From: Prorocentrum cordatum
Lineage: Eukaryota > Sar > Dinophyceae > Prorocentrales > Prorocentraceae
Length of the DNA stretch: 64,000 bases
Assembly (NCBI GenBank): GCA_963575745.1
Contig: CAUYUJ010018318.1
Coordinates: 1-64,000 of the forward strand
Direction: 5' to 3'
Shown here: one piece after another, positions 2,734-38,783 of the stretch
How the letters are laid out: each line of letters starts with the position of its first letter
How positions within the stretch are numbered: the stretch's first letter is position 1
Made by a program: the position numbers and the translations under genes
Notes under the pieces: model-generated
The model's database searches: none
The model's input: the letters and a program-made list of their open reading frames with translations, nothing else
What the model was told of the DNA's origin: nothing

Positions 2734-3260
2734 GTAAGCCACCGCGAGGGGGTGTGGTTCTGGTGGCGGCAGGGACTGCAAGCGGTGAAACTGTCGCCAC
2801 TATCGCGAGCTGTTGGGGGTCCTTGGGTAAAACTGTCGCCACTGTCGCGAGCTCTTGGGACTTAAGCTAACAGAGACGGTAGCGCGTGCTAAGTACTCTG
2901 ATATGCTGCACACACGCCCCATGCGGGGCAGCGGATACGTGCGATGCTGCGGCATGTGTCGCAGGGCATATCCAAATGCAGGACACGGGGGACTCAATCG
3001 TACAACGGCCCTCCATCAACCTTCATCCTCGATTAGTCGTCTGTTGCTTCATCATTCGTCTTTCCTATCCTCATTATCGTCCTTCTTCGTTCTCCTCCTC
3101 CCCCTCCTCCTTCTCCTCCTCGCCCTCTGCCTCCTCCTCCTCCTCCTCCTCCTCCTATTCCCTCTGCCCCCGTCGTCCTCGCTCTCGTCCTTGTCCTCCT
3201 CCTGGTCCTCCTCCTCATCCAGCTCCCAGTCATCCCTCGTCGCCCCATTGCTGCTGCCAG

Positions 3261-12277: not shown

Positions 12278-13593
12278 GCAGCGGATTCGTTGTTAGGAGT
12301 AAGCGTGATCAATCTTTTGACCAAAAAACGGCATCTTCTCGGCTTCCTTCGAACCTCGCAATATTGTGAGTGCGGTTGCGGCGGTCACTGCAGCATTCAC
12401 GCGATGTTTCTCGTGGCAGCTTGGATGTTAGAAGCTCTCGTCAACGGTGAAGTGCCAGCTAGACGGCACGACATGACGCCATGGGACCCCTTCGATGATA
12501 TGAACAAGCCTGGGGACTCTCTGGGAGGTTTTCGGTGCATGGTCCTGTATTATAAAGGAGACTGGGCCGAATATCAGAAGAGTTTCGGTTTATCGTCGTG
12601 GGCAAAATCATACAACCCATGCCCAATTTGCGATTGCCCCCTGGACTGTATGCACGTCACAGGGCCTGGCTTCATCACGAGTGACGGTATGTTGTACAAT
12701 GATAGGGCCGAGGAGGAATACGAGAGGGCATGTTTGTCGTGTGAGATTCGCGTCGTGGTGGACTCGGAGGCCCTCCGATCAGCTATCGTTCGAAATTTAA
12801 CATATGACATCAACGGGAAATCGGCGAAGGGGCGAGTTTTGGTAGGCCCCATCCCTGAGTATCCTGGGCTCGGCCTTGCTCGGCTAGACAGGCTAGAACC
12901 ATCTGCGTCGGTGGTGAACCCGAATCTGTTCGAGAAGTACCCGATACCATTTGAAGCCACTTTCTGGAGGTCACATTATGATGTCGGTGGGAAGAAAACC
13001 ATTGATTGGGTCACCCATAGATCGCCAATTTTCTCGAAGTCTCTGGGTACCAGCCCCGCCAGAACTCTTGCGATAGACTCCCTGCATACCGTTTACTGCG
13101 GGGTCATGATGACCCTGGTTGGGGCAATTTTCATGCGTCTGCTTCGAGCGAACCCCTGGCACGCCCCAGAACATGCGAAGCTTCAGCGACTGGTTCACGA
13201 TTTGGAAGGGTGGTACGATTATGCAGATATACCCCCCGATATGCGGATGGGCGGCATCACAGAAAAAATGCTCCCGCGTCCTGGTGCTGACCCCCACCCT
13301 GGTGGAATGATGAAGGTGAAAGCTGCCGAATGTCATATGCTGCTGAACTTTGCCATACATATGAGCAGGAAGCACCTCGCTGTATTACCACGAGGGGTGA
13401 ATTTGCATCAGGCATCGGTGTCGCTGGAGGAGTGGTGCTTGACGTGCCGTGGAGCGCGAACACGCCTAACGGTATCGCAGTACCAACGGTTGCTGGACAC
13501 GTGTCGAGTGTGTATCTTTCAATCGCAGGACGCTGGTATCCACTCGTTACCCAAACACCACAGCTTTGGCCACTTAACAATCAGGACACATGG
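12278..13593 (+). CDS. Gene B exon 2, core of the transposase-like protein
   Basis: The exon starts AADSLLGVSVINLL (phase 0 after GCCGAG) and runs 438 codons plus 2 nt. In order it contains LLTKKRHLLGFLR, a Cys-rich CECGCGGHC motif, RRHDMTPW, LYYKGDWAEYQ, a Cys knuckle (CPICDCPLDC), CLSCEIRVVV, TFWRSHYD, IDSLHTVYCGVMM, and LPKHHSFGHLTIRTHG. The GDWAE, DSLH and KHH blocks line up with the remembered family. A GGTACA-type donor (GT at 13594, phase 2) ends it. The intron before it (11994-12277) is C/T-rich with CCCACTCCA repeats. Candidate acidic residues for catalysis are Asp of ADG (exon 1), Asp/Glu of GDWAE and Asp of DSLH. Confidence 0.75.
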
Positions 13594-17575: not shown

Positions 17576-18286
17576 CCCAAAGAACTCCAAGCGTCATCAT
17601 CGGAAGCCGATCCTGCTAGTCCGTCCGTGCGCAGGCGCAAGGAATGCAAGATCGAGCGTCGCAGACAAGATCTGCCCATCCTCCCCAGACAACCCGTGTA
17701 TGTGATTCCCACCCCTTTTCTGTCTATCTCTCTCGCTCGTGCCCCAATACTTCCTTCCCCGCCGCTTCCTGTTCATGGGGGTGGGGTGGATCATGTTTGC
17801 AGGCGGTCGATCCTGTCCTTGCCAGGATGGCGCAACGTTTTCGGAGGCAGCGGAGGCGGCTCGCCTCGAACAAGACGCCCTGACCCAAGGAGGAACCCGC
17901 GCGTACTTCCATCCACCCCCTTGGCCTCAGCTCGCCGCCGTCATGCAGAACGTGTCGAGGTCTCTCCGACCCAGGCGCGCGTGTCCCCCCCTGATCTGTC
18001 TAATTCCCAAGCGAGGCGGGTGGCGATGAGGAGAGGGGAGGGGGGAGCGGGGGCACTCGCGGTTTCTTCCTTGGGCTAGATTCTCTCGAGCGTTTCGGTG
18101 CGCCTGCAACGTCCAGGCCCCAGGGATTGGTCTCGCGCGCAGGCTCCGAGCGCCGATTCCAGAGTTTGCAAAATTCGTCGGTTGGACAATCGACTCCCTG
18201 ATTGCACGCTGGACGAACTGATCGTTTCATGCCGCCCAGGCTGTCTGCGCGAGCGCTGTCGGTGCCGCAAGCGAGAGCGTCAGTAA
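17576..18286 (+). CDS. Gene D downstream exon region (uncertain model)
   Basis: Three segments show coding bias. At 17576-17697, PKELQASSSEADPASPSV is followed by a basic stretch and a GTGTAT donor. From 17803, after a clean TTTGCAG acceptor, there are three competing frames (one ends at 17883, one reads EAAEAARLEQDALTQGG, one stays open to 18079). About 18164-18286 ends VCKIRRLDNRLPDCT and then a Cys/Arg-rich tail with a TAA stop. I cannot fix the splicing, so the span is given as one entry. No function is suggested. Confidence 0.3.
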
Positions 18287-18299
18287 TCCAATCCACCGA

Positions 18300-18620
18300 C
18301 ATTCATAATTGAAAGCCCATCCCAAACGACACCAAGTGGAAGTAGAAGGACACGGTGGAGGAGGGGGCGACGGGAATCAAGGGGAGGGCAAAGGAAGATG
18401 AGGATGATACGGAGGAGGAGGAGGAGGAGGAGGATGAGGATGGAGGAGGAGGAGGAGGAGGAGGAGGAGGAGGAGGAGGAGGAGGAGGAGGAGGAAGAGG
18501 GGGGGGGCATGAGGGGGGACGGGGGATGGGGGAGGGGGAAGGGGAGGGGGAGGGGAAGAGGAAGGGGAAGAGGAAAACGAGCCAGGCGAGGGCTGGCGAA
18601 GCGCGGCGTCGTTGTTGCAA
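18300..18620. other. Purine-rich tract before family A copy 2
   Basis: GAGGAG and GGA repeats at 18410-18500 are followed by GGGGA-type repeats to about 18575. No gene. Confidence 0.7.
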
Positions 18621-19664
18621 ATCCCACCAGCCCTCTGGGCGTAGGTGGTCTAGAACAGATCCTCTTCCACCCCTCCCTCTGCCCCCTTGGGGAGGGGTTT
18701 ACCCCTCCCCCTACCCACTCCCCTGGACCTGGACGGAGGGTTTCGCGAGCGGTCGGACGGCTCTTTTGGGCCCAAGATGGTTCCAAGAGCGCCCCAGCGA
18801 GCCCCAGATAACCTCCAAGATGGCTCAAGATAGCGTCAGAGCGCTCGAGATGGCTCCTAAGATGGTACCAAGAGGCCCAGATACGGCCCCATGATGGCTC
18901 CAAGTGGCCAACGAGCTCCCCAAGGATGCCCCGACGAGGCCCAAAATCGTCTCAAAACCCTAGGAACACCAATGTGGTGTTGCTTTCTCCCCGTTTCGCT
19001 TCCGATGGCCATCCAAGGCCTCAAGATGGCTCCAAGATGGCCCAAGAGGGCCCCACCAGTGGCCCAAGAGAGCCCCAAGACGGCCCCAAGATCGCCCAAG
19101 AGCGCTCCAAGATCGCCTCGCGTCGGGCCTGAGGGGGGGGGCTAGTTATGGAACCCTCCTTCGTTGATCGGTCTCCTCCACGATGCCCCCAAGAGCGCCC
19201 CTACAGCCCCCAAGAGCGCCCCAAGAGCGCCCCAAGAGGCGCCCATACGGCCCCAAGAGGCGCCCAAGAGGCCTCCAAGAGGCTCCCAAGAGACCCCCAA
19301 GAAGCCTCAAGATGATCTCCGAAATGCATTTAAGACGCGTCTGGCTCTTCGGTTCGCCATCCTCTTCAATGTATCATCCCCCTCTTCCTCCTCCTCCTTC
19401 TCCTCCTTCTCCTCCGTCTCCTCCCTCTGCTCCCTCTCCTCCTTCTCGTCCTCCTCGTCCTCTCCCTACTCCACATCCTCCTCCTCATTCTCCTCCTCCT
19501 CCTCTTCCTCCCCCTCCCCCTCCGACGAGGATTCCTTCTCCATCCTCCCCCTCTTGGGGTACGTGACAGCTTCCCCGTCCGTTGTTATTCTGCCTGCATG
19601 CTCCCCGACTTCCCTGATCACCTTGACTCCCCTGGGCATCGTTTCTGCATGGGCTGGTGGGGAT
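18621..19664. repeat. Dispersed repeat family A, copy 2
   Basis: The copy is colinear with 858-1947. It has the same ATCCCACCAGCCC start, the same GACGGCTCTTTTGGGCCCAA segment, the same CCAAGATGGC/CCCAAGAGGC ladder, the same TCC tract, and the same GGGCTGGTGGGGAT end. Similarity with copy 1 continues about 25 bp past the inverted-repeat end (ACGCGA-GCGTCAACA). The spacing between modules has small indels, consistent with two old copies. Confidence 0.75.
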
Positions 19665-21034: not shown

Positions 21035-21800
21035 ACCAGTTGCAGCTTCCAGTTTCCACTGTTACAGTACTGTTTCTTGCTGCTTACTGTTCCTTGTTGA
21101 TGGACCGCGCGAGGGGGGAGGCCCAAAACGGATATTTTTACTACGCCCTGAGCGTGTGCTCTGAATTGCTGGGGTGGGTAAAAATTAACACCCCTCACGC
21201 AGATGGGCGGGCTCAGGGTCCAAAAACACTTCGGATTAGCCACATTTCTGAAATTCGCTGGCGCCCCTCACGCAGATCGGCGGGATCAGGGTCCAAAAAC
21301 ATAGGATTTGCCACATTTCTGAAATTCGCTGGCGCCCCTCACGCAGATCGGCGGGGTCAGGGTCCAAAAACACATTGGATTTGCCACATTTCTGAAATTC
21401 GCTGGCGCCCCTCACGCAGATCGGCGGGGTCAGGGTCCAAAAACACATTGGATTTGCCACATTTCTGAAATTCGCTGGCGCCCCTCACGCAGATCGAAGG
21501 GGTCAGGGTCCAAAAACATAGGATTTGCCACATTTCTGAAATTCGCTGGCGCCCCTCACGCAGATCGGCGGGGTCAGGGTCCAAAAACACATTGGATGTG
21601 CTACATTTCGTAAATTCGGTGGCACCTCTCACGCAGATTGACATGGTCAGGGTCCAAAAACATATGGGATTTGATACATTTCTGAAATTCGGCGGCACCC
21701 CTCACGCAGATCCGTAGGGTCAGGGTCCAAAAACACAGGGGGTTTGCCACATATCTAAAATTCGGCGGCACCCCTCACGCAGATCCGTAGGGTCAGGGTC
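21035..21800. repeat. 71/73-bp satellite with conserved 150-bp flank (copy 1)
   Basis: Nine units, each with CCCCTCACGCAGATC, CAGGGTCCAAAAAC and TTTGCCACATTTCTGAAATT blocks, run from about 21185 to 21800. The CAGGGTCC starts at 21214, 21287, 21358, 21431, 21504, 21575, 21648, 21721 and 21794 show alternating 73- and 71-bp spacing. On its left lies a 150-bp flank (21035-21184) with CTGAGCGTGTGCTCTGAATT. The same flank plus array occurs in inverse orientation at 37605-38229. Confidence 0.9.
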
Positions 21801-21810
21801 GACAAACAAA

Positions 21811-27794: not shown

Positions 27795-28014
27795 CTTCCG
27801 CCAGCCGCCCGGGCCCTCGCCAGCAGACGTCCACATGCCATCACATACAGGACATATTCCTGCTTCCTGAACCACATCTACCTCCACCCTCCCCTGACGC
27901 GGGCGGAGACACGCGAAGCGTCAAGGAGGGTCGTTGTTCACAGTGGGGAACACATTGCGCATTGCATCCACGGTGCATTCAGCGACGCAAGGGAGGCGGG
28001 CCTCCGTCTACCCC
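27795..28014. repeat. 220-bp direct repeat, outer copy
   Basis: It begins CTTCCGCCAGCCGCCCGGG and ends GGGCCTCCGTCTACCCC. It is about 96% identical to 28556-28774, with one indel in the GTCGTT-TTCA segment. It joins directly to the Copia-like relic at 27794, so it is one terminus of the inserted element. Confidence 0.9.
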
Positions 28015-28555
28015 GTCCGCTCCTCAATGTATGAGGGCGGGTGGGTGGGGTTAAAAAGTGTTTACACCGTGCCTCATCATACCTTGAATTTGCACGGCTG
28101 CGGAACGCGCGCACTCGCGTTGACAAACCGAGTCCGCAACAATCTGCGCGTCCAGGAAATACTTCCGCCAACCCCCGCAAAACTTCCGCCGGCTGTCCAC
28201 GGCACCGTCTCCGTGACATGTGCACGTGCCTCTGCCGACTTCCGCTGGGCATCCGCCGGCAAACCGCCGCGCGCAGTTTGACTCCAACAATTGCCCGAGA
28301 GGCTTCGGCGTTAAAACTGTTAAACGCATTTTGGGGCCATCCTTGGGCCCCAGCCCCGGCACGAAATTGCCACGAAACCTCCCCTGGACTATCTGGCGTA
28401 ACATTGTCGTGCCGTACGGCCCATGTACTGACCTGGCCGGCATATCACTCACATCAGATTTACTCGACCTGTCGCGCCGGCCGGCCCCCCGCCTCTGGGT
28501 GGCCTCTCGGGGCCGGAAGGCTCGGCGGAAGAGGGGCTACTGGGAGTAGAGCCGC
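28015..28555. other. Spacer between the 220-bp repeats
   Basis: A 541-bp non-coding stretch. In PAT/Ngaro-type elements with split direct repeats, a segment here should recur at the other terminus; by eye I do not find it at 36200-36290. No gene is visible. Confidence 0.4.
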
Positions 28556-28774
28556 CTTCCGCCAGCCGCCCGGGCCCTCGCCAGCAGACGTCCACATGCC
28601 ATCACATACAGGACATTTTCCTGCTTCCTGAACCACATCTACCTCCACCCTCCCCTGGCGCGGGCGGAGACACGCGGAGCGTCAAGGAGAGTCGTTTTTC
28701 AGCGGGGAACACATTGCGCATTGCATCCACGGTGCATTCAGCGACGCAAGGGAGGCGGGCCTCCGTCTACCCCC
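28556..28774. repeat. 220-bp direct repeat, inner copy
   Basis: Near-identical to 27795-28014. It lies 148 bp beyond the end of the RNase H frame on the minus strand. Confidence 0.9.
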
Positions 28775-28921
28775 ATCTCCTCGGGCCGCCTCTCATCATT
28801 TGGAAATGCCAGCGTCGAGTCGCATTGCGCGACTGTCGAACGCTGACGGCCTTCGTTCTGGGTCGAGCAAGCCCTGCCGGAACAAAGCTAAGCACGGCAC
28901 GGCCTCCAGCACAACCGCGCC

Positions 28922-31066
28922 CTAGTATCCATCGAACTCCAGGCGAGACGCCATGTCGGCGGGGTTGCCGAGGGAAGGGGCCCTCTCAACCCACGACGCC
29001 GTGCCGCGCGCCATGTCCAACTCCTGCGACCACGAGATGAGCTCTGCACTCGCCTCCACCGGCGAATAGCCCCGGATGAGGCCGAAGCGCGCCGCCTCGT
29101 TGTCAACCTAATGGAGCAGCACTGCCTGTCGGAGCACGTCCGGCCACAGGAGGCGGGCCACGACCGCGGGGGCAAGCTCCGCCTGGCCGATCACCTGCTC
29201 CACAGTGCGCACCCCGCGGTCCTGCCACCTGGCCGCGACCTCACCTGGGACTTCCGCTCCCCGCACGACAGGGGTGGCGCCCGTGCGATACAGTACGGCG
29301 CCGATCGACGCCAGTGGCAGGCGGCCAAGGCGATGGGTGCAGGCCCCATCCGTAAACAGACGCAGCGTCGGGAGGCGTCGGTGGCAGCGCACCTCCCTTG
29401 GCCGGGTGTAGCTCAAGAACCGGCGCCACCACCGCAGCGCCCACTTCACCCTTGGGGTGATTCGGCCGCCCGCTGCGCACGTCTGCCTGAACTCGCCGAG
29501 GGCCTGCAAGGCCGCAGCGCCGCACCGGCCGAATGTGTTTGACCTGGCATACCGGCACTTGCCGATGAGGGATTCCAGCTCGCCGCGGCGGACACGGCCC
29601 CTGGCCTCGATCATCGCCAGGTCCTTGCTGATGGACTCTATCCGGCCCGGCTTGTTGCCAACCCTGAAGCAGCCGTGTTCGACAAGGGGGCTCATGTCGA
29701 AGTGCGCCCCGAGAGCGGAGAACGCTGGCCTCGGCACCCTGTCTTCCGGTCGCTCCTCCTTCGGGGGCCACCCGAGGAGCCCCAGGACCTCCACGGCCGT
29801 GGCGTGGCCCCCAGCAGCCAGAACCTCGGGCTCGAGGTGCGGATAATCATCGAAGTAATTCGTAACAGCGACCCGGATGAGCTTACAGAATATCCACTCC
29901 AGAGGCCGAAAGAAGCGGTTGGCCTGAAACACGGCGCCGGTCTCCCCGAACAGGAGGGAATAAGCCAGGCGGAACTCCACGCGGCGCCTGGACGTAGACC
30001 AGGACGTGACGACTGAGTACCTGCGGTGTTCTGGCCGCTTGGCCAACTGCTTGTAGGCTTTGCTGAGATCCAGTGTCCGGCCTGCGAGGCGCGCCGCCTC
30101 CGCGCGACTCCATTCGTCAGACAGCCTGCCTTCAAGAGCAGCGCCGCCAGGCAGGCGCACACTGACGCGCCGCCGGTCCCAGTCCACAGCTTCCGCCCAG
30201 CATCGGGCCAAGCCGGCGACCTCGTCGAGGCCGAGAACATCGAGCTTTTCGGTCCGCTCCACCATCAAGTTCTCACCGAACTCTGTGGCGTCGTCGATCT
30301 CCCGCGCCTTCCCTCCCTGCCAGAGGCCGAACCTTCGGGCGGGGAGCCAGTCCGGGCCGAGCGCGGCGGAAACCTCCGCCACCGACAGGAACGGCGCAGA
30401 CAAGAGGCCAGCAGCCTCCTGTTCCAGCGTCACTCGCTCGACCTCCGCGTCCAGAGCCGGGTCGGACGATGGCCCTGCCGACTCAACGGCCGCGCGCTGC
30501 GCCTCCGCGGCGCGCGCCAGGACGGCGGCGACGGACTCCTTCGCCGGGGCCGGAAGCGGAGGGAACGCCCCGGTCCTCGGGAGCACTCCGATGACCGCCA
30601 GGCCCGCGGCCGCCTCGGCTGCCAACCCGCAGTCTGGGCAACCCGCAGCCTGCGCCATCTCATCGAGCAGGAGGAGCCGCTTGCCGCGCAGCACGTGCTG
30701 CACGCCGGGCCCCATGGACTCGTGCAGCCTCGCCTCGTCCTGTTCCAAGGCTCGCGCCCGGCGGGCCCAGTGTTTGAACGCCAGCCGGCGGAAGCTCACA
30801 ACTTCAGACGGGCCGCGGGCAAGGACGAAGAACACTGTCTCGAGAACGTGCGAGCGCAGTTCTGGCAGCTGGTCGAAGGGCGCAACTGCCCCGGCTGCCG
30901 CGCGGGCAAACTCGTCGGGGTGCCAGGGCAGCCCGAACTTCGCAGGAACCCATCTTGCCTCGGCCCCGTGGTCACCCCCAGTCTCCTGGCCGAGGAGGAG
31001 CACCTTGGCCCCTGCGGGCGCTTCGCCGTCGCAGTGCCGCACAGGCTCGCGCAGCACGTCGCCCAC
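28922..31066 (-). pseudogene. YR-element pol: reverse transcriptase and RNase H, interrupted by an in-frame stop
   Basis: The minus-strand frame is open from 31066 (and upstream of it to about 31300, though without an ATG). RT motif A is TLDLSKAYKQLAKRP, a motif B region reads LLFGETGAVFQANRFF, and motif C is NYFDDYPHLE (YxDD type). After GHFD-type and SLIGKCRYARS segments, RNase H begins at LRLFTDGACTH. A TAG at 29108-29110 cuts the frame after VLRQAVLLH. The same frame then continues VDNEAARFGLIRGYS and LGNPADMASRLEFDGY to TAG at 28922-28924. The final catalytic Asp therefore lies beyond the stop. The copy is probably inactive unless the stop is read through. Confidence 0.8.
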
Positions 31067-31429
31067 CTGTAAGGCGAAGGCCGCCTCTGGCGGAAGCCGA
31101 ACGTCTGCGAACCCGGAGAATTCCGGAACCAGCGGGGATCGCCTTTGCCTGCGCGGCTGCGTGCCCGTCGCGGCAGTCAGGCGATCGCGGGCCGCTTCGG
31201 CGTGCCCGCCCGCTGCCTCGTCGGGCTCTGGCGCCCCAGGGACGGGCGCGACAGGCCGGCAGGCGCGAATCGCTGACGCCGGATGGTGGCCGCCAAGGGC
31301 GGCCGCGGGCGACTGGGGGCAACGCGCCGTTGCCCCAGGGGCCCGCCTTTCTGGATGCCTATTCCGCTGCTCAGGGTCCGCCTCGTGTACAACCGAGGCC
31401 AGCAGCGGCGCGGCCTCGGCCGGGCCCCT

Positions 31430-32734
31430 TCACTGGTGGCGGGGCAAACAGTGGGGGTCGGAACAACCCACTGCGCCCTTGGGGCAACCTGGCTCGCAGC
31501 ACAAGTGCCACCCCTTCGAGCACCGCTGGCCCACCTGCGCGTGAGGGCACCCGTGCGGGAGGTTGGCGTCGAAGCAATACGGCTGCCCATCCGGCGTCTG
31601 CCGGTTCTTGCCGATCAGGCCCCTGGGCATGGGGGTGCGCTTGCCCTTGCCGGCCACCTTCGGCGCCGCTGCGGCGGGTGCGACCTCTGCTGGCTTCTGC
31701 CGCTTGTTCTCCGCCTGCCTCTGCCTGGACTCCTTGCGCTTCTCTGCCCTGGTCCTTGCCGAGCCCTGGTCGCCCTGCCGGTCTCCGCCGGGAGCGCTCG
31801 CGGCGGCGCCGCCACGCGGCGCTGCGGTCTTCGGCAGAGGCGTCAGGATCATCGCGACGCGCGGGTGATCCAGGATAATAGGGACGAGCTCATCCAGCGG
31901 CCACTTGCCATCAATGCCGGGGCGGATCCCTGTGAGCTCGGTGCGTTCCGCCAGCAAGCGCCACAACTCGACATCCGCCCGCTTGACCTGGTCCAAAGTG
32001 GGCGGATTGTAGGCCGGGTCAGGGCTGCTGCCCGTGAGCTCCGCCAACCAGCGCTGCTGGATCTTCTGGTGCACCTCCAAATGCATCACCCGCCCGGCCT
32101 CGGCCGCCACGCCGCGCCGAACCAGGGCCTGGTACAGGCGGAACTCGGTCCCATAATCGGCCGAAGCTGCCGACCGTGATGGGACGTGTCTGACATACCC
32201 TTGCGCGTCTTCCTGCCATTCCGTGGGTTTCTTGCCCGCGGGCTTGGCGCCCTCGTCTGCGCGCGACGGGATGTCGGCCCAAGGGGCGTACTTGACCTGG
32301 TTGTCTTCGTACATCTGGGCGAACGCAGTGACCGTTGCACGAGCCGGCTCGAACTGATCCCGGATGTTGAGACCAGGGAGAGCCTTCTTCCGCACAGCCT
32401 CGACGCGCACCGCGATCTCTTTGGCTGGGAGAGACATCGGTGGGTCGTCCTCGCGACGGTCGATCTCGCGGCGCATGCTGGCGCAAGAATGGGTCCAGGA
32501 ATCCCAGAACAAGCGTCGGATTGCGGTGGTGCTGCGGGCCCCGGCGGCGCCCGACGGAGTCAGAACCTCTCGTTGGAAAGCCTCTGGGTCTGGGTTGCCG
32601 CCAGCCTGGGCCGGGCAGGCGAAAGCGAACGAGCCCATTGTAGTCCAGCCATGTTCTTCAAACTTCGGCCAGAGGTCTACGAGGCCGAACTTGTCGACGC
32701 GCTCCCGGAAGACGGCCTCGCTGTCGAGCGCCAT
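31430..32734 (-). CDS. YR-element gag-like protein with C-terminal Cys/His cluster
   Basis: A 434-codon minus-strand ORF from ATG (32734). It has a helical N-terminal half (VDKFGLVDLWPKFEEHGW, MRREIDRREDD), a second helical region (HLEVHQKIQQRWLAEL), and a basic linker (KRKESRQRQAENKRQK). The C-terminus reads YCFDANLPHGCPHAQVG, then RCSKGWHLCCEPGC, with at least eight Cys/His. This pattern (a gag-like helical body with a Cys cluster ending in KGxHxCC) recurs in dinoflagellate retroelements as I remember. The RT frame begins within about 130 nt downstream. The ORF is intact. Confidence 0.7.
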   Translation of the reverse strand: MALDSEAVFRERVDKFGLVDLWPKFEEHGWTTMGSFAFACPAQAGGNPDPEAFQREVLTPSGAAGARSTTAIRRLFWDSWTHSCASMRREIDRREDDPPMSLPAKEIAVRVEAVRKKALPGLNIRDQFEPARATVTAFAQMYEDNQVKYAPWADIPSRADEGAKPAGKKPTEWQEDAQGYVRHVPSRSAASADYGTEFRLYQALVRRGVAAEAGRVMHLEVHQKIQQRWLAELTGSSPDPAYNPPTLDQVKRADVELWRLLAERTELTGIRPGIDGKWPLDELVPIILDHPRVAMILTPLPKTAAPRGGAAASAPGGDRQGDQGSARTRAEKRKESRQRQAENKRQKPAEVAPAAAAPKVAGKGKRTPMPRGLIGKNRQTPDGQPYCFDANLPHGCPHAQVGQRCSKGWHLCCEPGCPKGAVGCSDPHCLPRHQ

Positions 32735-32834
32735 CCGGCTAAGCAGAAGCAGGTTGAACTAGGTTGCGAGGCTGCAGAGTAAGCCAAAGCTACAGACGCC
32801 TGAGCCCAAAACTACGGACGCTGACAATATACAC

Positions 32835-32955
32835 CTCCTGGCACGCGCCATTCGCAATGCCAGGAGCTCGGACGACGCGGTGCGGCGGCGCGCCATTCGC
32901 ACCGCCGCACTGCGACATGACGCCATGGGCGCCGCGCCATTCGCAGCGCCCATGG
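32835..32955. repeat. Three perfect hairpins with invariant loop CGCGCCATTCGCA
   Basis: 32835-32866: stem CTCCTGGCA / TGCCAGGAG (9 bp), loop with one extra A. 32880-32910: stem GTGCGGCGG / CCGCCGCAC (9 bp). 32923-32955: stem CCATGGGCGC / GCGCCCATGG (10 bp). The loop is the same in all three, while the stems share no sequence. Each stem is perfectly paired. They lie in the non-coding gap between the gag-like ORF and the tyrosine recombinase. Confidence 0.9.
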
Positions 32956-33039
32956 CCGCCACTGCGCACGAAATAATGTGCCCAATTGCGAATCGGCTCT
33001 GCTTAACATAGCTCTCCATTGAGGGATCCAGGACAAGAG

Positions 33040-33190
33040 AGTTGCGACCGTTTAGATTGCCACGGGACCTCTCGGTGAAGGCCGCCCGACGCCACCACCA
33101 TCCAGGAACCCAGGACAAGAGGAGGCGACCGTTTAGGTTGCCCCAGAGCCTCCCTGGACAGAACAGCCGTCGTCACCCACTGAGGGCGAC
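33040..33190. repeat. Two-unit tandem repeat (CAGGACAAGAG...CGACCGTTTAG)
   Basis: A segment with CAGGACAAGAG, GCGACCGTTTAG and TTGCC blocks occurs at about 33020-33070 and again at 33105-33150. It is non-coding, inside the YR element. Confidence 0.6.
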
Positions 33191-33739
33191 CGCCATTACT
33201 TCCACCTTTTTCCGCACAAGCTCCGCCGGCACCCCAGAAGAGGGGCGCGAAATGTTAACAACAGTCCTGATGTCCCAGGATCGGGGGGGCACGATTTGTT
33301 GACATCTGTCCCGGCTTCGTGGCCGATGCAGCTTCTGCCCCAAGTTATTATTTTCGCTGTCGCGAGCCTGAGGGGTCAGATTTCCTGGCAATCCTCGCAC
33401 CGTGTGCCAATTGCCCTCCGTACCACACGCGTGCGCGCCGGGGGCCCCCGGAGGCCGCCCAGCCGCACAAAAGCAACTCGCCTGTGGGATTTTTGACCCC
33501 TTCAGGGAGGAGTGCGACCACAGGGCCACAAGGACGGGAGGGAGGAGCGAGGGAGGGGCAAGGAACGATACACGGGGAGAGGGAGGGGGGAGAGACATGG
33601 TGGAAGGGAGAGGATGGGGAAGAGGGAGGGGGGGAGGGAGCGAGGGAGCGAATGTAACATTACATGACAATCTTTCCTTTCCTCCCATGCCGACCTCCTT
33701 TTCGGCCGTTGCGCAGCTCCCTGCCGCACTTCATGTTGC

Positions 33740-34370
33740 GCCGCCTCGCAGCAGCGCGTCATTCGCGCCGCCGCTCCGCGAGCTGCAATGCTGGCGCCGC
33801 GCCATTCGCGGCACTAACGGCCCCGCAGCCCCCTTCACAACGGCGCGCATTCGCACCGTCGTTCCGGTGGCCGCTGCCGCCAAGCTACGCATCGCAGCAG
33901 CGCGCCATTCGCGCCGCCGCTCCGCGAGCTTGCGCCCCATGGTGCCGCGCCATTCGCGGCCCAGCAGCCACCCTCGCAACGACGCGCATTCGCACCGTCG
34001 CTTCGGTGGCCGCTGCCGCCAAGCAGCGCATCACAGCAGCGCGCCCTTCGCACTGCCGCACCGCGAGCTATATCCCGGTGACGCGCCATTCGCGGCACCA
34101 CCGGCCCAGCAGCCACCTTCGCAACGGCGCGCATTCGCACCGTCGCTCCGGCGGCCGCTGGCGCCATGTAGTGCGGCGCAGTTGCGCGCCATCCGCACCA
34201 CCGCCCCGCGAGATGCCATCCTGGTGCCGCGCCACTCGCGGAACCAACTGCCTCGCAGCCGCCTTCATAACACTGCGCATTCGCACTGATGTTTCGGAAG
34301 GCTGCTGGCAGCGCGTGGCATGGCAGCCACCGACGCAACAGCGCGCATTCGCACCGTCGCTTCAGTGCCG
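33740..34370. repeat. 139-146-bp array of decayed CATTCGC-loop hairpins
   Basis: The loop core (GCGCCATTCGCG, or GCGCATTCGCA with one C lost) recurs about 13 times, at roughly 45-60-bp spacing, inside four larger units. GCGCATTCGCACCGTC starts near 33846, 33985, 34130, 34276 (degenerate) and 34344. Flanks still pair partly, for example GCAACGG / CCGTCGC and GCAGCAG / CCGCCGC. The mismatches are mostly consistent with C-to-T or G-to-A change at CpG in one arm. It is the same family as the three perfect hairpins at 32835-32955. Confidence 0.75.
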
Positions 34371-34464
34371 GCCGCCATCGTGCATGCAGCCGCCTACGGC
34401 TGCACTCGCCTGTTTTCTCGGGTTCGACGCGGCACGCCCGATCAAAAACTACCGGGCTGCTCAT

Positions 34465-36195
34465 TTATAACTGCGGGAAGCACGCCCCGCAGCGCGGCCA
34501 CGCTGTCACTGGCCACCTGTCCAGGCGAAGGTACGTGCCCGGAGGAGCCCTGGCTCTCGGGCACGCCGGCCTGTCCTCGCCAGCAGCGCACCTCCGGTGG
34601 ATGGTCACGCGGACCGAGTGCTGCACCAAGCCATCGGCCGGGAGGGGTTCCTCCCGCTGCTCCGCAAGCGCCGGCTGCGCACCGCCGGCCTCGTCGCCAG
34701 CGTCCTCGAGGACAGCGCCCGTGAGCTCCGCGGCCATGGCCACCGAATGGCACCGTGCGTCGCTGTCCGCGTTCTCCGTGGTGGCCGCCGACTCGCTAGG
34801 GTCGTCCGACAAGACTGCCGGGCCTTCAACATCCCCGGACGGCATCTCGTCCCCACTGGGCAAAGAGGATGGGGGGCCCGCCGAGGGAGACCTTGGTGGG
34901 TGCTCCTGCTCGCCCGAACTGCCCTCGTTCTCCTCCGCGTCCTCCTCCAGCTCTCCTGCATCCAACACGCACGCGTCCTCGCTGCTCGCGCCGGCCTGTT
35001 TCGCCGCTGCAGCCCTGGCCTCCACCTTCCCAGCAGGGAACATTTCTCCGCGCACAGCGTCCGGGCAGAACGACCCAGCGGCCACAGCATCGAGGACACG
35101 GCCCAGCCTGCGGAGAGGCGCCGCAAGGGCGTCTCGCGAGCACGCGAGGATGGACGCGGTTCCAGGTTTGACGTGGCCCCCGAGCAGTCGTCGCGCATTC
35201 TCGCCGAGGCCGAACTTGGCGGCCCAAGAGAGGAGCGTGGTCTTGAGAGAATGCGAGCCCAGCGCCGTTACGACGGACGGGCTCTCCCCGTAAGCGGCGA
35301 GGATCTCCCGGAGCCACAACGTCGCATCCTCGGCAGACAATCGCCGCTCTCCGAAGCCTCCGCCGACCAGCGGCACAGGCATCAGACACCCTTGCACCGC
35401 AGCGTCCAGCCCAACCTCCTCCCTCGCCCTCAACCACGCGTCGGCCCAGCGCCTGCCGCGTATGCCGAAGGCATGCCCCGCGACTGGGATGAGCTCAGCC
35501 TTCCTGCGCAAACGCCGCACCGTCTTCCATCTGAGAGGGTCGGCCTCCACCTCGATGAAGCTACCCTCCAGGCGTGGTTCCCACGACACCGAAGCACCAT
35601 CACGGCGCCTCGACCGGGTATACAGGAGGAAGAGCTGGAAACCCTTGTCCTCCAAGGCAGGGGCATCCTCCACCGCGTCCTCCAAGATCATGGTCTGGTT
35701 CACGGTGAGCGCCGGGCGTTGCACTCGAGGTGGCTTGGAATTGGCCATCGCCTCCGCTACGCCCCTCGACCGGCGTGTCACCAAGCCGGCGAAGTCATAA
35801 CCAAGCAGCGTCGAGGCCAACCCGAGCGCCTCGAGGAACGAATCCGCCCGTGACGGGGGCGCCCTCACTGCCCGGAGGAAGTTGACGTAGTCGTACACAG
35901 TGCTCTCCTGTGGAGGGACCGCCCACCCTGCGACAGCTCCTGGACGCGTGCGCTCCCACCTCAAGAACATGAGCAGGGAATTCGCCGTTTTGTCCAAGGT
36001 CGATGTCGCCCGGCTGTACAGGGCGTCTCGCAAGACTGGTTGGCGCCTCTCTTCTGGTTCCCTTCGGAGCTGCAATCCCAAGATCGAGCCCGACGCCGCC
36101 TCGGCCACGCGCATCCACTTGGCCAGCGCAACAGCCCGCTCCTCGTCTTCACTATCAGCCGGAAGACCTGCTGCTGCAGCCGGCCGTTTGGCCAC
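34465..36195 (-). pseudogene. Tyrosine recombinase with catalytic Tyr changed to Cys
   Basis: A 576-codon minus-strand ORF. The N-terminal core-binding-like part has SLLMFLRWERTRPGA and STVYDYVNFLRAVR. The catalytic domain has FLLYTRSRRRDGASVS (first Arg), LGSHSLKTTLLSWAAK (His-x-x-Lys box), LLGGHVKPG (second His) and SILACSRDALAAPLR. In the family as I know it the last block reads Tyr-Ser-Arg-Asp; here the codon at 35140-35142 encodes Cys (residue 352). After that comes an acidic, Ser/Pro-rich tail. No ATG is found at the 5' end; the frame opens after a TGA near 36237-36239. The single A-to-G change would abolish strand cleavage, so it is called a pseudogene although the frame is open. Confidence 0.65.
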
Positions 36196-36269
36196 GCGCC
36201 GGAAACAGGCCTGAAACTGGGCAAAGGATTTATGGAGTCAACAGAGAAAGGCGCGCAGCGAGGGGCTTG

Positions 36270-37603
36270 GGGTACCTGGGCCATGCGCGAACCTCATCAC
36301 GTTCGGACACCTGACCACAATGGATCACTGGCTTGCGATGGATGACCCATCGCGGGGGCTCCGCGACGAGACAGCGCGCGTGACTTTTCGCGACCGGGCA
36401 ACATATTTCCTAGCAGCTCAGGGTGCGCATGATGATTATGCGGTCCACGTGTGCAATGTTTGGATCAGCCTTAAAGCTCCGGGAGAGAAGTTACAATATT
36501 GTTACGCTGACGGTGCGAGGGAACTCGCACGCGCGTGCAAATAACTAAATAGAGCACATGATCCTACCATCCCTGGTAACAATCAAACTCATGGCTGTCG
36601 CTGAACGGCCCGCTGGAATCGTTTAAATGGGGCCCGAGCCTCGTTGATGCAGGCCGGCCTTCCCCCACCTTTTTGGACATATGCCGTCCGATACTTGTGT
36701 CTCTGCTATAACGCACGGATCTCTGAGGAAGGTGACTCGCCATGGAAGCGCAGGTTCGGACGCGACTTTGCTGCTCCGCTCCTTCCGTTCGGATCCCACG
36801 TGCGCTTCGTGCCCTCTCTTGAGTCCAGGTTTCGGATCACCAAAACCGGCGGGGCGACGGTCGCGGGGGTTTACCTCGGATATGTACGTCAAGCGGGGGG
36901 CATGGTAGGACTCGAGAGCTACGTGTCACCGTTGAAACAACTTGGCGGACTCATCGAGAAGTCTGACCAAGTCTACAGCAATATTTTAGATGGCGCCGCG
37001 GCTGATCAAGAGCCCAAGTTCCCCGTGAGGGAAGCGCATGAAAAAGCCCAAACCGAAATTGAGAATGCCATCGCACCTCCAGGCGGTTCCTCTGCCGGCT
37101 CAGCCGGGCAGGGGGCCCGAATGGGTTCGCAGACGGCTCCGCCGTTCAACGATCGAGACCCTGGCGAACCGACGCCGCCGCCCCCGCCACGGGGCGAGGC
37201 CGCAACACCACCAAACCTCGACGACGACTCTGATGATGATGGTCCGGGGGGAATTTTTGCGGGCGACGTGCCTGCGGCGCCGGGTGGTCGGGGGCTCGAC
37301 GAAGTCGAGACCAGATATTGACCCAAAAGAAAAGCTTGGTCCCGCCCATGTCGGGCGCAGATTGGATCGACAGTCCAACTTCCCCGTGGACCAGCCGAGA
37401 AAGAGAGTGCCCGGGCCAGGCCAGCTTCTCGCCCGTACCACGCAAAATTTAGGCACTATGGAACGTTATGAAGATCGACGCGTCGTGGCTGGGCTCACCA
37501 ATGATGAGCTAACCGAGAAGCTGCCATTGAAAAGAAGACGGAAACCGCGCAGAATTCGAGTAGCGTTGTACTACGATCCAGATTACGCACCTGTTACTCG
37601 TGA
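36270..37603 (+). pseudogene. Copia-like pol relic, part 2 (integrase)
   Basis: The frame resumes at about 36270 with ITFGHLTTMDHWLAMDDP, then VTFRDRATYFLAAQ (first Asp) and YCYADGARELARACK (second Asp), and stops at 36542-36544. Short frameshifted pieces follow: HDPTIPGNNQTHG, VAERPAGIV (Glu), then from 36644 SLMQAGLPPPFWTYAVRYL, FGRDFAAPLLPFGSHVRF, GVYLGYVRQAGGMVGLE. The D-D-E triad is preserved across at least two frameshifts and a stop. After 37320 the frame changes again and continues as a basic segment (KLPLKRRRKPRRIRVAL) until the satellite at 37605. Confidence 0.75.
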
Positions 37604-37604
37604 C

Positions 37605-38229
37605 CCCGGCGATCTGCGCGAGGGGCGCCAGCGAATTTCAGGAATGCGGCAAATCCGTTGTCTTAGTGGGCCCTGACCCCGCCGACCTGAGTGAGGGGTG
37701 CCAGCGAATTTCGGAAATGTGGCAAATCCTTTGTGTTTTTGAACCCTGACCCCGTCGATCTGCTTGAGGGGTGCCAGCAAATGTCAGATGTGGCAAATCC
37801 CTTGTGTTTTGTTGGAACCTGGCCCCGCCGATCTGCGCGAGGGGTGCCACCGAATGTCAGGAACGTCGCAAACCCCTTGTGTTTTTGAGCCCTGACCCCG
37901 CCGATCTGCGCGAGGGGTGCCACCGAATGTCAGAGATGTGGCAAATCCTTTGTTTTTGGACCCTGGCCCCGCCGATCTGCATGAGGGGTGCCAGCGAATT
38001 TCAGCAATGTGGCAAATCCCTTGTGTTTTTGGACCCTGACCCCGCCGATCTGCGTGAGGGGTGTTAATTTTTACCCACCCCAGCAATTCAGAGCACACGC
38101 TCAGGGCGCGGTATAAATTCCCGTTTTTGGCCCCCCCCCCCTCGCGCGGTCCATCAACAACGGACAGCAAGCAGCAAGAAGCAGAACTGTAACAATGGAA
38201 ACTGGAAGCTGCAAAGAAGCACGATCGGG
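37605..38229. repeat. 71/73-bp satellite with conserved flank, inverted copy
   Basis: Seven units of the reverse complement of the 21185-21800 array (CCCTGACCCCGCCGATCTG blocks near 37602, 37672, 37746, 37817, 37890, 37964, 38035) are followed by the same 150-bp flank (38067-38222) carrying the complement of CTGAGCGTGTGCTCTGAATT. Homology ends at GGAAACTGGAAGCTGCAA in both copies, so flank and array moved as one unit. It interrupts the 3' end of the Copia-like relic. Confidence 0.9.
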
Positions 38230-38783
38230 ATCGGTCGCTTGCGTGGCCCGATGAGTTCGTTGATGATGTAGGCGGCCGCGCGCGCGATGGCGGCTGGGGC
38301 CCTTCGCTGGATCACGCCGACAGGGATGACAACGGCAACATCCAGGGATATTACTATGTTCACACGGATCGCCATCGGAAGATAACAGGCAGTCGCAGAA
38401 CATGGTTCTGGTTCAGCGGGAACGAGTACAATGCAGAGTTCGCAACAGACCGTGAAGATGAATCGTGGGGAGAAAAATGGACCTCCCGTGGGCGAGCTTG
38501 GACAAGATCAGGAGATGTACCCGCGGGACACCCAGTTTCTGATGATCATGCTCGTGAAGCACTGCGAAGTGCCTCTGCATCCTTGCCCGCACCACCGCCG
38601 CCACCTACGCCTAAGGCGAGGCCGGCCGACAGTGGCAAGAGCAAGGACAAGTCTAGCAGCTGGAACACTGACAGAGGAAGAGAATCTTATGACTATCGCC
38701 AGCGAGATCAGTCTCAATGGAGCTGGCGGACCAGCTATGATTGGAACAATCCTCAGCGCCGGGAAGAAGGTTGGCGGATATGA
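38230..38783 (+). CDS. Trp/Arg-rich exon, unknown protein
   Basis: The frame reads KKHDRDRSLAWPDEFVDD, then NIQGYYYVHTDRHRKITG, TWFWFSGNEYNAEF, and a proline run. It then becomes an SR/YD-rich tail with repeated Trp (SQWSWRTSYDWNNPQRRE), ending TGA at 38781-38783. There is no Met in frame, so it needs an upstream exon. The only nearby acceptor (CTGGAAG at about 38209) lies inside the end of the satellite flank. Near 38760 a second frame (VGGYDFVQKDQYDFVG to a TAA at about 38869-38871) also looks coding, so the last part may be shifted or spliced. No family recognised; a WW- or RNA-associated protein is only a guess. Confidence 0.5.

Follow-up and report, generated by a model that had tools for sequence, protein, structure and literature searches.

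Hairpins with a shared apex and changing stems, folding largely on the sense strand, between the recombinase-like and gag-like genes of a probable Prorocentrum cordatum retrotransposon

In a 64,000-nucleotide stretch of the Prorocentrum cordatum genome (here called the window), we found a row of about 16 stem-loops, consisting of a tandem array of 13 units and three leader hairpins (the trio), all of them between an open reading frame (ORF) resembling a tyrosine recombinase (YR) gene and a gag-like ORF. The fold of the array belongs largely to the sense strand of the genes, as expected of RNA, and covariation and pair-sparing substitutions in the array support the view that selection acted on it. 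The RNA structure is well supported, and its function is something that we infer: we tentatively favor, at a little short of even confidence, a multi-copy cis-acting RNA signal made up of array and trio, in which many Gag-bound sites would gather the RNA of the element for packaging. The genes of the element are on the minus strand, in the order YR-like ORF, 1.7-kb spacer, gag-like ORF, reverse transcriptase (RT)/RNase H ORF, and repeats. The features are as follows.

34468 to 36237, minus strand: YR-like ORF of 590 aa, the first gene of the element, placed by alignment to relatives.
33743 to 34365, minus strand: the array, 13 hairpin units in tandem (A, B, and C, repeating every 139 bp), folding as sense RNA.
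33500 to 33660, no strand assigned: tract in the spacer that is purine rich on the plus strand.
33016 to 33061 and 33098 to 33142, minus strand: direct repeat of about 46 bp, two copies 83% alike.
32921 to 32957, minus strand: hairpin H3, an 11-bp stem, then G.U and GCG/CGC, with the sense loop AAUGG.
32877 to 32913, minus strand: hairpin H2, with a 13-bp stem.
32833 to 32868, minus strand: hairpin H1, with a 9-bp stem and one extra nucleotide.
31433 to 32758, minus strand: gag-like ORF, with P. cordatum homologues P0002 and P0003 and tblastn homologues downstream of the YR in six of eight flanks (see below).
28904 to 31429, minus strand: RT/RNase H ORF, with the reading frame open to 29111 and homology to 28904.
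27795 to 28773, minus strand: split direct repeats B1 (28556 to 28773), A2 (about 28014 to 28556), and B2 (27795 to 28014).

Homologues, in P. cordatum among others, identify the RT/RNase H gene. The RT ORF was 95% identical to P0002 of P. cordatum across the 371 aa queried, and a relative, P0009, matched Pfam RVT_1 (E = 1.7e-7); part of the window ORF (29108 to 31066) matched no Pfam family at E 0.1. The C terminus of the gag-like ORF is Cys/His rich, as judged by eye. Across seven aligned YR-like proteins (an eighth match, P0016, with 21% coverage, was omitted), the residues R, K, HxxK, H, and Y line up. The first H of the motif is found in six of them (P0015 has R), and six also have the presumed catalytic Tyr, the window copy having Cys at that place. 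Pfam Phage_integrase was matched by one of the seven (E = 0.2), Cre box II aligned in register with the YR-like ORF in hhalign but with an E value of 0.24, and a PDB profile search with the YR-like protein gave no matches. The candidate YR assignment rests on the aligned R, K, HxxK, H, Y pattern, with weak support from the libraries. The Cys in place of Tyr suggests that the window copy of the element is probably inactive, though its YR-like ORF is open over 590 aa.

In a short copy of the element (C10068), the repeats are all direct and lie at 12997 to 13448 (A1), 18168 to 18395 (B1), 18396 to 18839 (A2), and 18916 to 19145 (B2). A1 is joined there next to the point matching window position 33512, and the element ends at A1 and B2, with no hairpins at its ends. 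The copy in C14333 has the same A1-B1-A2-B2 repeats. The C10068 layout is that of the split direct repeats of PAT/Ngaro/VIPER-type elements, as defined in the part of PMC4157794 available to us. Like the DIRS, PAT, Ngaro, and VIPER retrotransposons in the available parts of PMC5890265, PMC4157794, and PMC6681497, the window's element family has gag-like, RT/RNase H, and YR-like genes and the split arrangement A1-coding-B1-A2-B2; one such element from a dinoflagellate is SymbioDIRS-Dnmt3 (PMC5890265, same part). The hairpins occupy the YR-gag gap of what is probably a YR (DIRS-type) retrotransposon, in agreement with the noncoding gap in which the array was originally placed. In the available parts of the same three papers, the gag-like gene is described as ORF1, whereas here gag comes after the YR, beyond a spacer of some 0.9 to 2.6 kb that contains hairpin arrays in several families. 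The word "hairpin" is absent from the main texts of these papers, and open-licence titles and abstract openings yielded no description of such hairpin arrays in DIRS/YR retrotransposons. TATATA-like stretches abut the element ends in C10068 (12997 and 19145) and C15532 (175236); the end in C14333 (14940) abuts an AT-rich stretch, and that in the window (27795) does not. Perhaps these AT-type flanks reflect a loose target preference.

The trio was predicted as three hairpins with a common loop, the first carrying an extra A, and this is what we observed. On the plus strand, CGCGCCATTCGCA is common to all three, with one extra A in H1, and folded as DNA the hairpins were better than shuffles (z of -5.7, -5.2, and -4.1; 0, 0, and 1 of 200 shuffles as good). 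The supposedly invariant 13-nt loop is indeed a shared sequence but not a single loop: the true loop is a 5-nt CCATT closed by GCG/CGC, followed by a C.A opposition and then the stem. On the minus strand this opposition is a G.U pair. The stems, said to be unrelated, are so only in H1, which has no visible relative among the array units; H2-H3 (32882 to 32952) matches array units A-B (33894 to 33963) at 81%, so trio and array share ancestry. Common ancestry thus accounts for the stems in part (H2 with A and C, and H3 with B), but compensating changes are also present. Perfect plus-strand pairing was seen in the window and in the identical C10068 trio and was nearly reached in C15532, whereas several plus-strand pairs are broken in C16682, C14333, and C4.

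About 13 further relatives had been predicted, and 13 cores are present at 33755 to 34352, arranged as four rounds of A, B, C and one additional C. The sense apex, shared by array and trio, reads 5'-UGCG-AAUGG-CGCG, with variants (AAUG in the C units), and the C hairpins have long irregular stems of 21 bp with a 3-by-3 internal loop. These relatives had been called decayed, a description that does not fit them as sense RNA. The plus-strand A.C oppositions of their stems are mostly G.U pairs on the coding strand: the 360 stem cells of 45 array hairpins comprised 232 Watson-Crick, 83 A.C (sense G.U), 16 G.T (sense A.C), and 29 other cells, which are not independent, as the array units share ancestry. 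This set combines the core-pattern matches from four array copies with one manually added unit, and five further covariance-model units were left out. All but one of the 45 were more stable in sense (mean of -18.8 versus -11.6 kcal/mol). The folding energy of the 641-nt array was -424.6 kcal/mol in sense, against -352.2 for 60 shuffles (standard deviation [SD], 5.4; z = -13.3), and -308.5 kcal/mol in antisense, against -284.7 for 60 shuffles (SD, 7.0; z = -3.4); the shuffles also fold better in sense (-352 versus -285), so base composition explains part of the difference.

The spacer as a whole had 16 strong hairpins in sense versus 2 in antisense. When 28000 to 38500 was scanned in 120-nt segments every 60 nt, array and trio were the structural peaks: the mean z was -3.4 in sense and -1.1 in antisense for the array, about -5 on both strands for the trio, and 0 to about -1 in other parts. 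For 15 trio hairpins from five copies, the counts of A.C and G.T cells were 18 versus 14, and 12 of the 15 were more stable in sense; by z the trio had no strand bias (-7.4 in sense and -8.1 in antisense). Because it folds about equally on both strands, the trio alone does not decide between RNA and DNA. A strand test of this kind (G.U versus A.C) can help to separate RNA from DNA function in a noncoding repeat.

The strand bears on the proposal that the tyrosine recombinase uses the hairpins as sites of folded single-stranded DNA. In integron attC sites, the folded single DNA strand is the recombinase substrate, and the hairpins studied here resemble them in lying near a tyrosine recombinase gene. 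The adjoining YR-like gene and the roughly equal folding of the trio on both strands would suit such a role. Unlike attC, however, the array prefers the strand of the transcript: in the RNA sense its fold is stronger and its pairs are spared more. Split direct repeats are the usual YR substrate; the element carries them as A1-B1-A2-B2, and it is with A1 and B2, rather than with hairpins, that C10068 ends. We strongly doubt that these are recombination sites: for the array the proposal is not supported, the indirect evidence against it being a fold largely on the sense strand, and the trio leaves the matter undecided.

Selection on the fold, as originally predicted, was apparent in the array. 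Stem covariation, suggested as a check, was found in a set of 28 hairpins that omits the H1 rows because of their extra base: the score was 0.323, against 0.132 for shuffles and 0.213 for the best slid structure. The number of cells changed on both sides was 44 (16.4 in shuffles), while the number of pairs so changed (7 of 12) was not above shuffles (6.6). In a set of 18 long C hairpins, 16 of them distinct, the share of paired cells was 89.6%, versus 87.6% in shuffles, and 6 of 21 pairs had changed on both sides, versus 3.6 (reached by 31 of 500 shuffles). Their covariation score was 0.233 (shuffled, 0.201; best slid, 0.158), by margins over shuffles that are small and with a structure favored over the slid ones since it was derived from one of their own sequences. 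G.U cells outnumbered A.C cells both in the long C hairpins (59 versus 8; one-sided variant types, 14 versus 5) and in the 28-hairpin set (43 versus 9; 9 versus 6).

Substitutions between array copies also spared pairs. We compared copies in six combinations, placing the same substitutions at random in 2,000 simulations. Between the window and C16682, 68 substitutions broke 16 sense pairs versus 24.8 expected (SD, 2.7; 3 of 2,000 simulations as low), and between the window and C4, 130 substitutions broke 31 versus 44.6 (0 of 2,000). Sense counts as low were reached in 15 of 2,000 simulations for C16682 versus C4, in 21 for C16682 versus C15532, and in 0 for C4 versus the window; the 18 changes between the window and C15532 are too few (849 of 2,000). 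For antisense pairs the six comparisons gave 499, 1,771, 360, 91, 1,491, and 63 of 2,000, two of them leaning low. Part of this signal could stem from exchange among the array units. In the trio, none of four comparisons between copies revealed pair-sparing, and the copies thus seem to decay after insertion. Across 59 hairpins, own pairing was 326, versus 314.2 after exchange within classes (12 of 5,000, kinship uncorrected); in classes B and H1 it was not above exchange.

Hairpins without function could also arise if tandem duplication and snap-back repair (quasipalindrome correction) made and kept them, as in a passive satellite. The array units are indeed tandem copies, some of their differences resemble CpG-type transitions by eye, and the trio copies decay without sparing pairs. 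Yet in three families the stems change and the apices do not, and a snap-back process, which does not distinguish G.U from A.C, should produce neither a sense-strand bias nor pair-sparing that is stronger in sense; both were seen. This explanation is already weakened, and we regard it as decidedly unlikely. CpG decay as the whole story was dropped, the bias being strand specific.

We searched the P. cordatum genome (4,128,499,153 bases in 21,875 contigs) for further copies. The trio was found in at least six places, namely, the window, C10068 (100%), C15532 (98%), C16682 (93%), C14333 (87%), and C4 (75%), and the array in at least four (the window, C15532, C16682, and C4). All the trio and array places found belong to copies of a single retrotransposon that carries split direct repeats. 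In the stretches read, C10068 and C14333 have A1, and no match to the YR or the array was seen; the trio stays beside gag in both. The window, C15532, C16682, and C4 carry the array and all or part of the YR, with no A1 detected, and are perhaps cut off on the A1 side. As C10068 extends from A1 to B2 but has no array, not every transposition requires the array in cis.

The genome contains 182 occurrences of the loop 13-mer, compared to 41 of its reversed letters. We checked 100 of these 182 places, 3 of which are the C10068 trio; the other 97 gave 88 distinct flanks. By the plus-strand rule, each of the 88 had fewer than 7 of 8 positions paired; by the sense rule, with A.C allowed, 3 had 7 of 8, one of them a C4 array unit. 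Unrelated viral loci, with 109 distinct flanks among the matches listed, had 2 with 7 of 8 and none with 8. As the loop has no paired flanks elsewhere, where read, a dispersed mobile hairpin family was rejected. Viral contigs searched for relatives yielded none. An upstream start codon, read from the AUG of each loop, was another candidate dropped, as inspection by eye showed AAGGG or AGUGG in many units.

The long irregular stems of the C hairpins could recall precursors of small RNAs. In these hairpins, though, it is the apex and not the stem that is best conserved, and no Rfam family was found at its gathering score: Rfam 15 gave no matches in the window, and the 13 weak matches within 32700 to 34480 were each below half of the family's gathering score. 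We give this origin very little credence.

Other element families were reached through the YR. A protein search of the genome gave at least 58 matches, with 74 of 5,089 candidates scored, and for eight divergent YRs (37 to 40% identity to the query) we read the 3.5 kb that follow. A gag homologue followed the YR in six of the eight flanks (L252 to L257), the matched part of gag starting about 0.9 to 2.6 kb behind the YR homology; L251 and L258 had none within the 3.5-kb stretch. The YR-spacer-gag order of the window recurs in these six. L252 and L254 are 98% alike, as are L255 and L256; L251 is related to L253, and L258 is related to L255/L256, which makes four families besides that of the window. 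L258 (C14313:303500-307000) also contains, at 3161 to 3219, a hairpin with a 25-bp stem of about -65 kcal/mol, downstream of its divergent YR.

Three of the four other families have an array of repeated motifs in the YR-gag spacer, with stems that differ yet self-pair in two. L254 has 18 hairpins with the apex CGGAG(N)G and differing stems (GGG/CCC, GAG/CTC, GCGAG/CTCGC, and GGGGA/TCCCC); its own arms paired at 3.72 of 5 positions, versus 3.09 after arm exchange (3 of 10,000), and its near copy L252 gave 5 of 10,000. L257 has 14 distinct hairpins with GCGA(A/G)AGACGC, pairing at 5.07 of 6 versus 4.69 (15 of 10,000 in the most favorable of three registers; 1,165 and 5,357 in the other two). Its core, GCGAAAGACGC, resembles that of the window in its GCG/CGC closure and in a 5-nt loop starting with AA. 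A motif resembling GTCGCC-loop-GGCTGGAC, with constant stems, is present in 14 distinct copies in L255 and 13 in L256, and arm exchange was not significant (2,125 and 2,023 of 10,000). In sense, the L255 spacer (818 to 2395) has 21 copies of GTCGCC-loop-GGC, with a constant stem and a changing loop, the reverse of the window's pattern. No array was seen in the L253 spacer. Sense bias by z was not evident in L252/L254 or L257, and counts of strong hairpins in the eight flanks (sense/antisense, 6/4, 9/7, 13/6, 11/8, 7/1, 5/1, 8/11, and 6/6) had no uniform bias. By a generic recurring-core statistic, the window family scored 6.0, and L257 (5.4), L252 (5.25), L254 (5.0), L255 (4.5), L256 (4.5), and L253 (3.75) were within the range of 68 control tiles; as these reach 5.43, only the window family stands out by this measure.

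A location between YR and gag, an order found in six of eight divergent flanks, and the sense-strand RNA fold of the array are also what might be expected of an intercistronic device, in which hairpins would enable ribosomes or the trans-splicing/3'-end machinery to handle YR and gag-RT separately on a single transcript. We consider this unlikely; the trio persists in short copies without a detected YR, and a common apex on changing stems would point to recognition of the apex rather than to a mere barrier. The constant apex and interchangeable stems instead give the hairpins the look of a multi-site RNA tag for a protein. RNA viruses, including MS2, use stem-loops with a shared motif as dispersed packaging signals, according to the part of PMC6281560 available to us, and the window family likewise has multiple stem-loops with a shared apical loop motif and otherwise variable sequence. 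Unlike those signals, ours are packed into one spacer, and binding by a coat protein or Gag is what we infer here.

Packaging was one of several roles originally proposed for the hairpins and is the one that we favor. The constant apex would be the part read by a protein of the element, the stem merely presenting it and being free to change provided that it pairs. With the array in front of gag, and the trio still beside gag in copies without a detected YR, Gag would be the natural and most likely reader; many adjacent sites would then mark the element RNA and gather it for packaging. The apex would be expected to diverge between families together with their Gag. It is possible, and we put it forward with limited confidence, that dinoflagellate YR elements carry a family-specific RNA code between YR and gag, made up of at least about a dozen stem-loops whose apex is constant within a family and whose self-paired stems change freely, each Gag gathering only its own RNA. 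If the reading is correct, a dense natural series of hairpins with one apex and many stems, matched in sister families by series with another apex, would offer a ready-made binding code, and RNA recognition in DIRS-type elements would become directly testable.

The direct repeat of about 46 bp lies between array and trio and is possibly a further cis element. The window also has two stretches of a 73-bp satellite, oppositely oriented, at 21189 to 21808 (8.5 copies) and 37601 to 38063 (6.4 copies).
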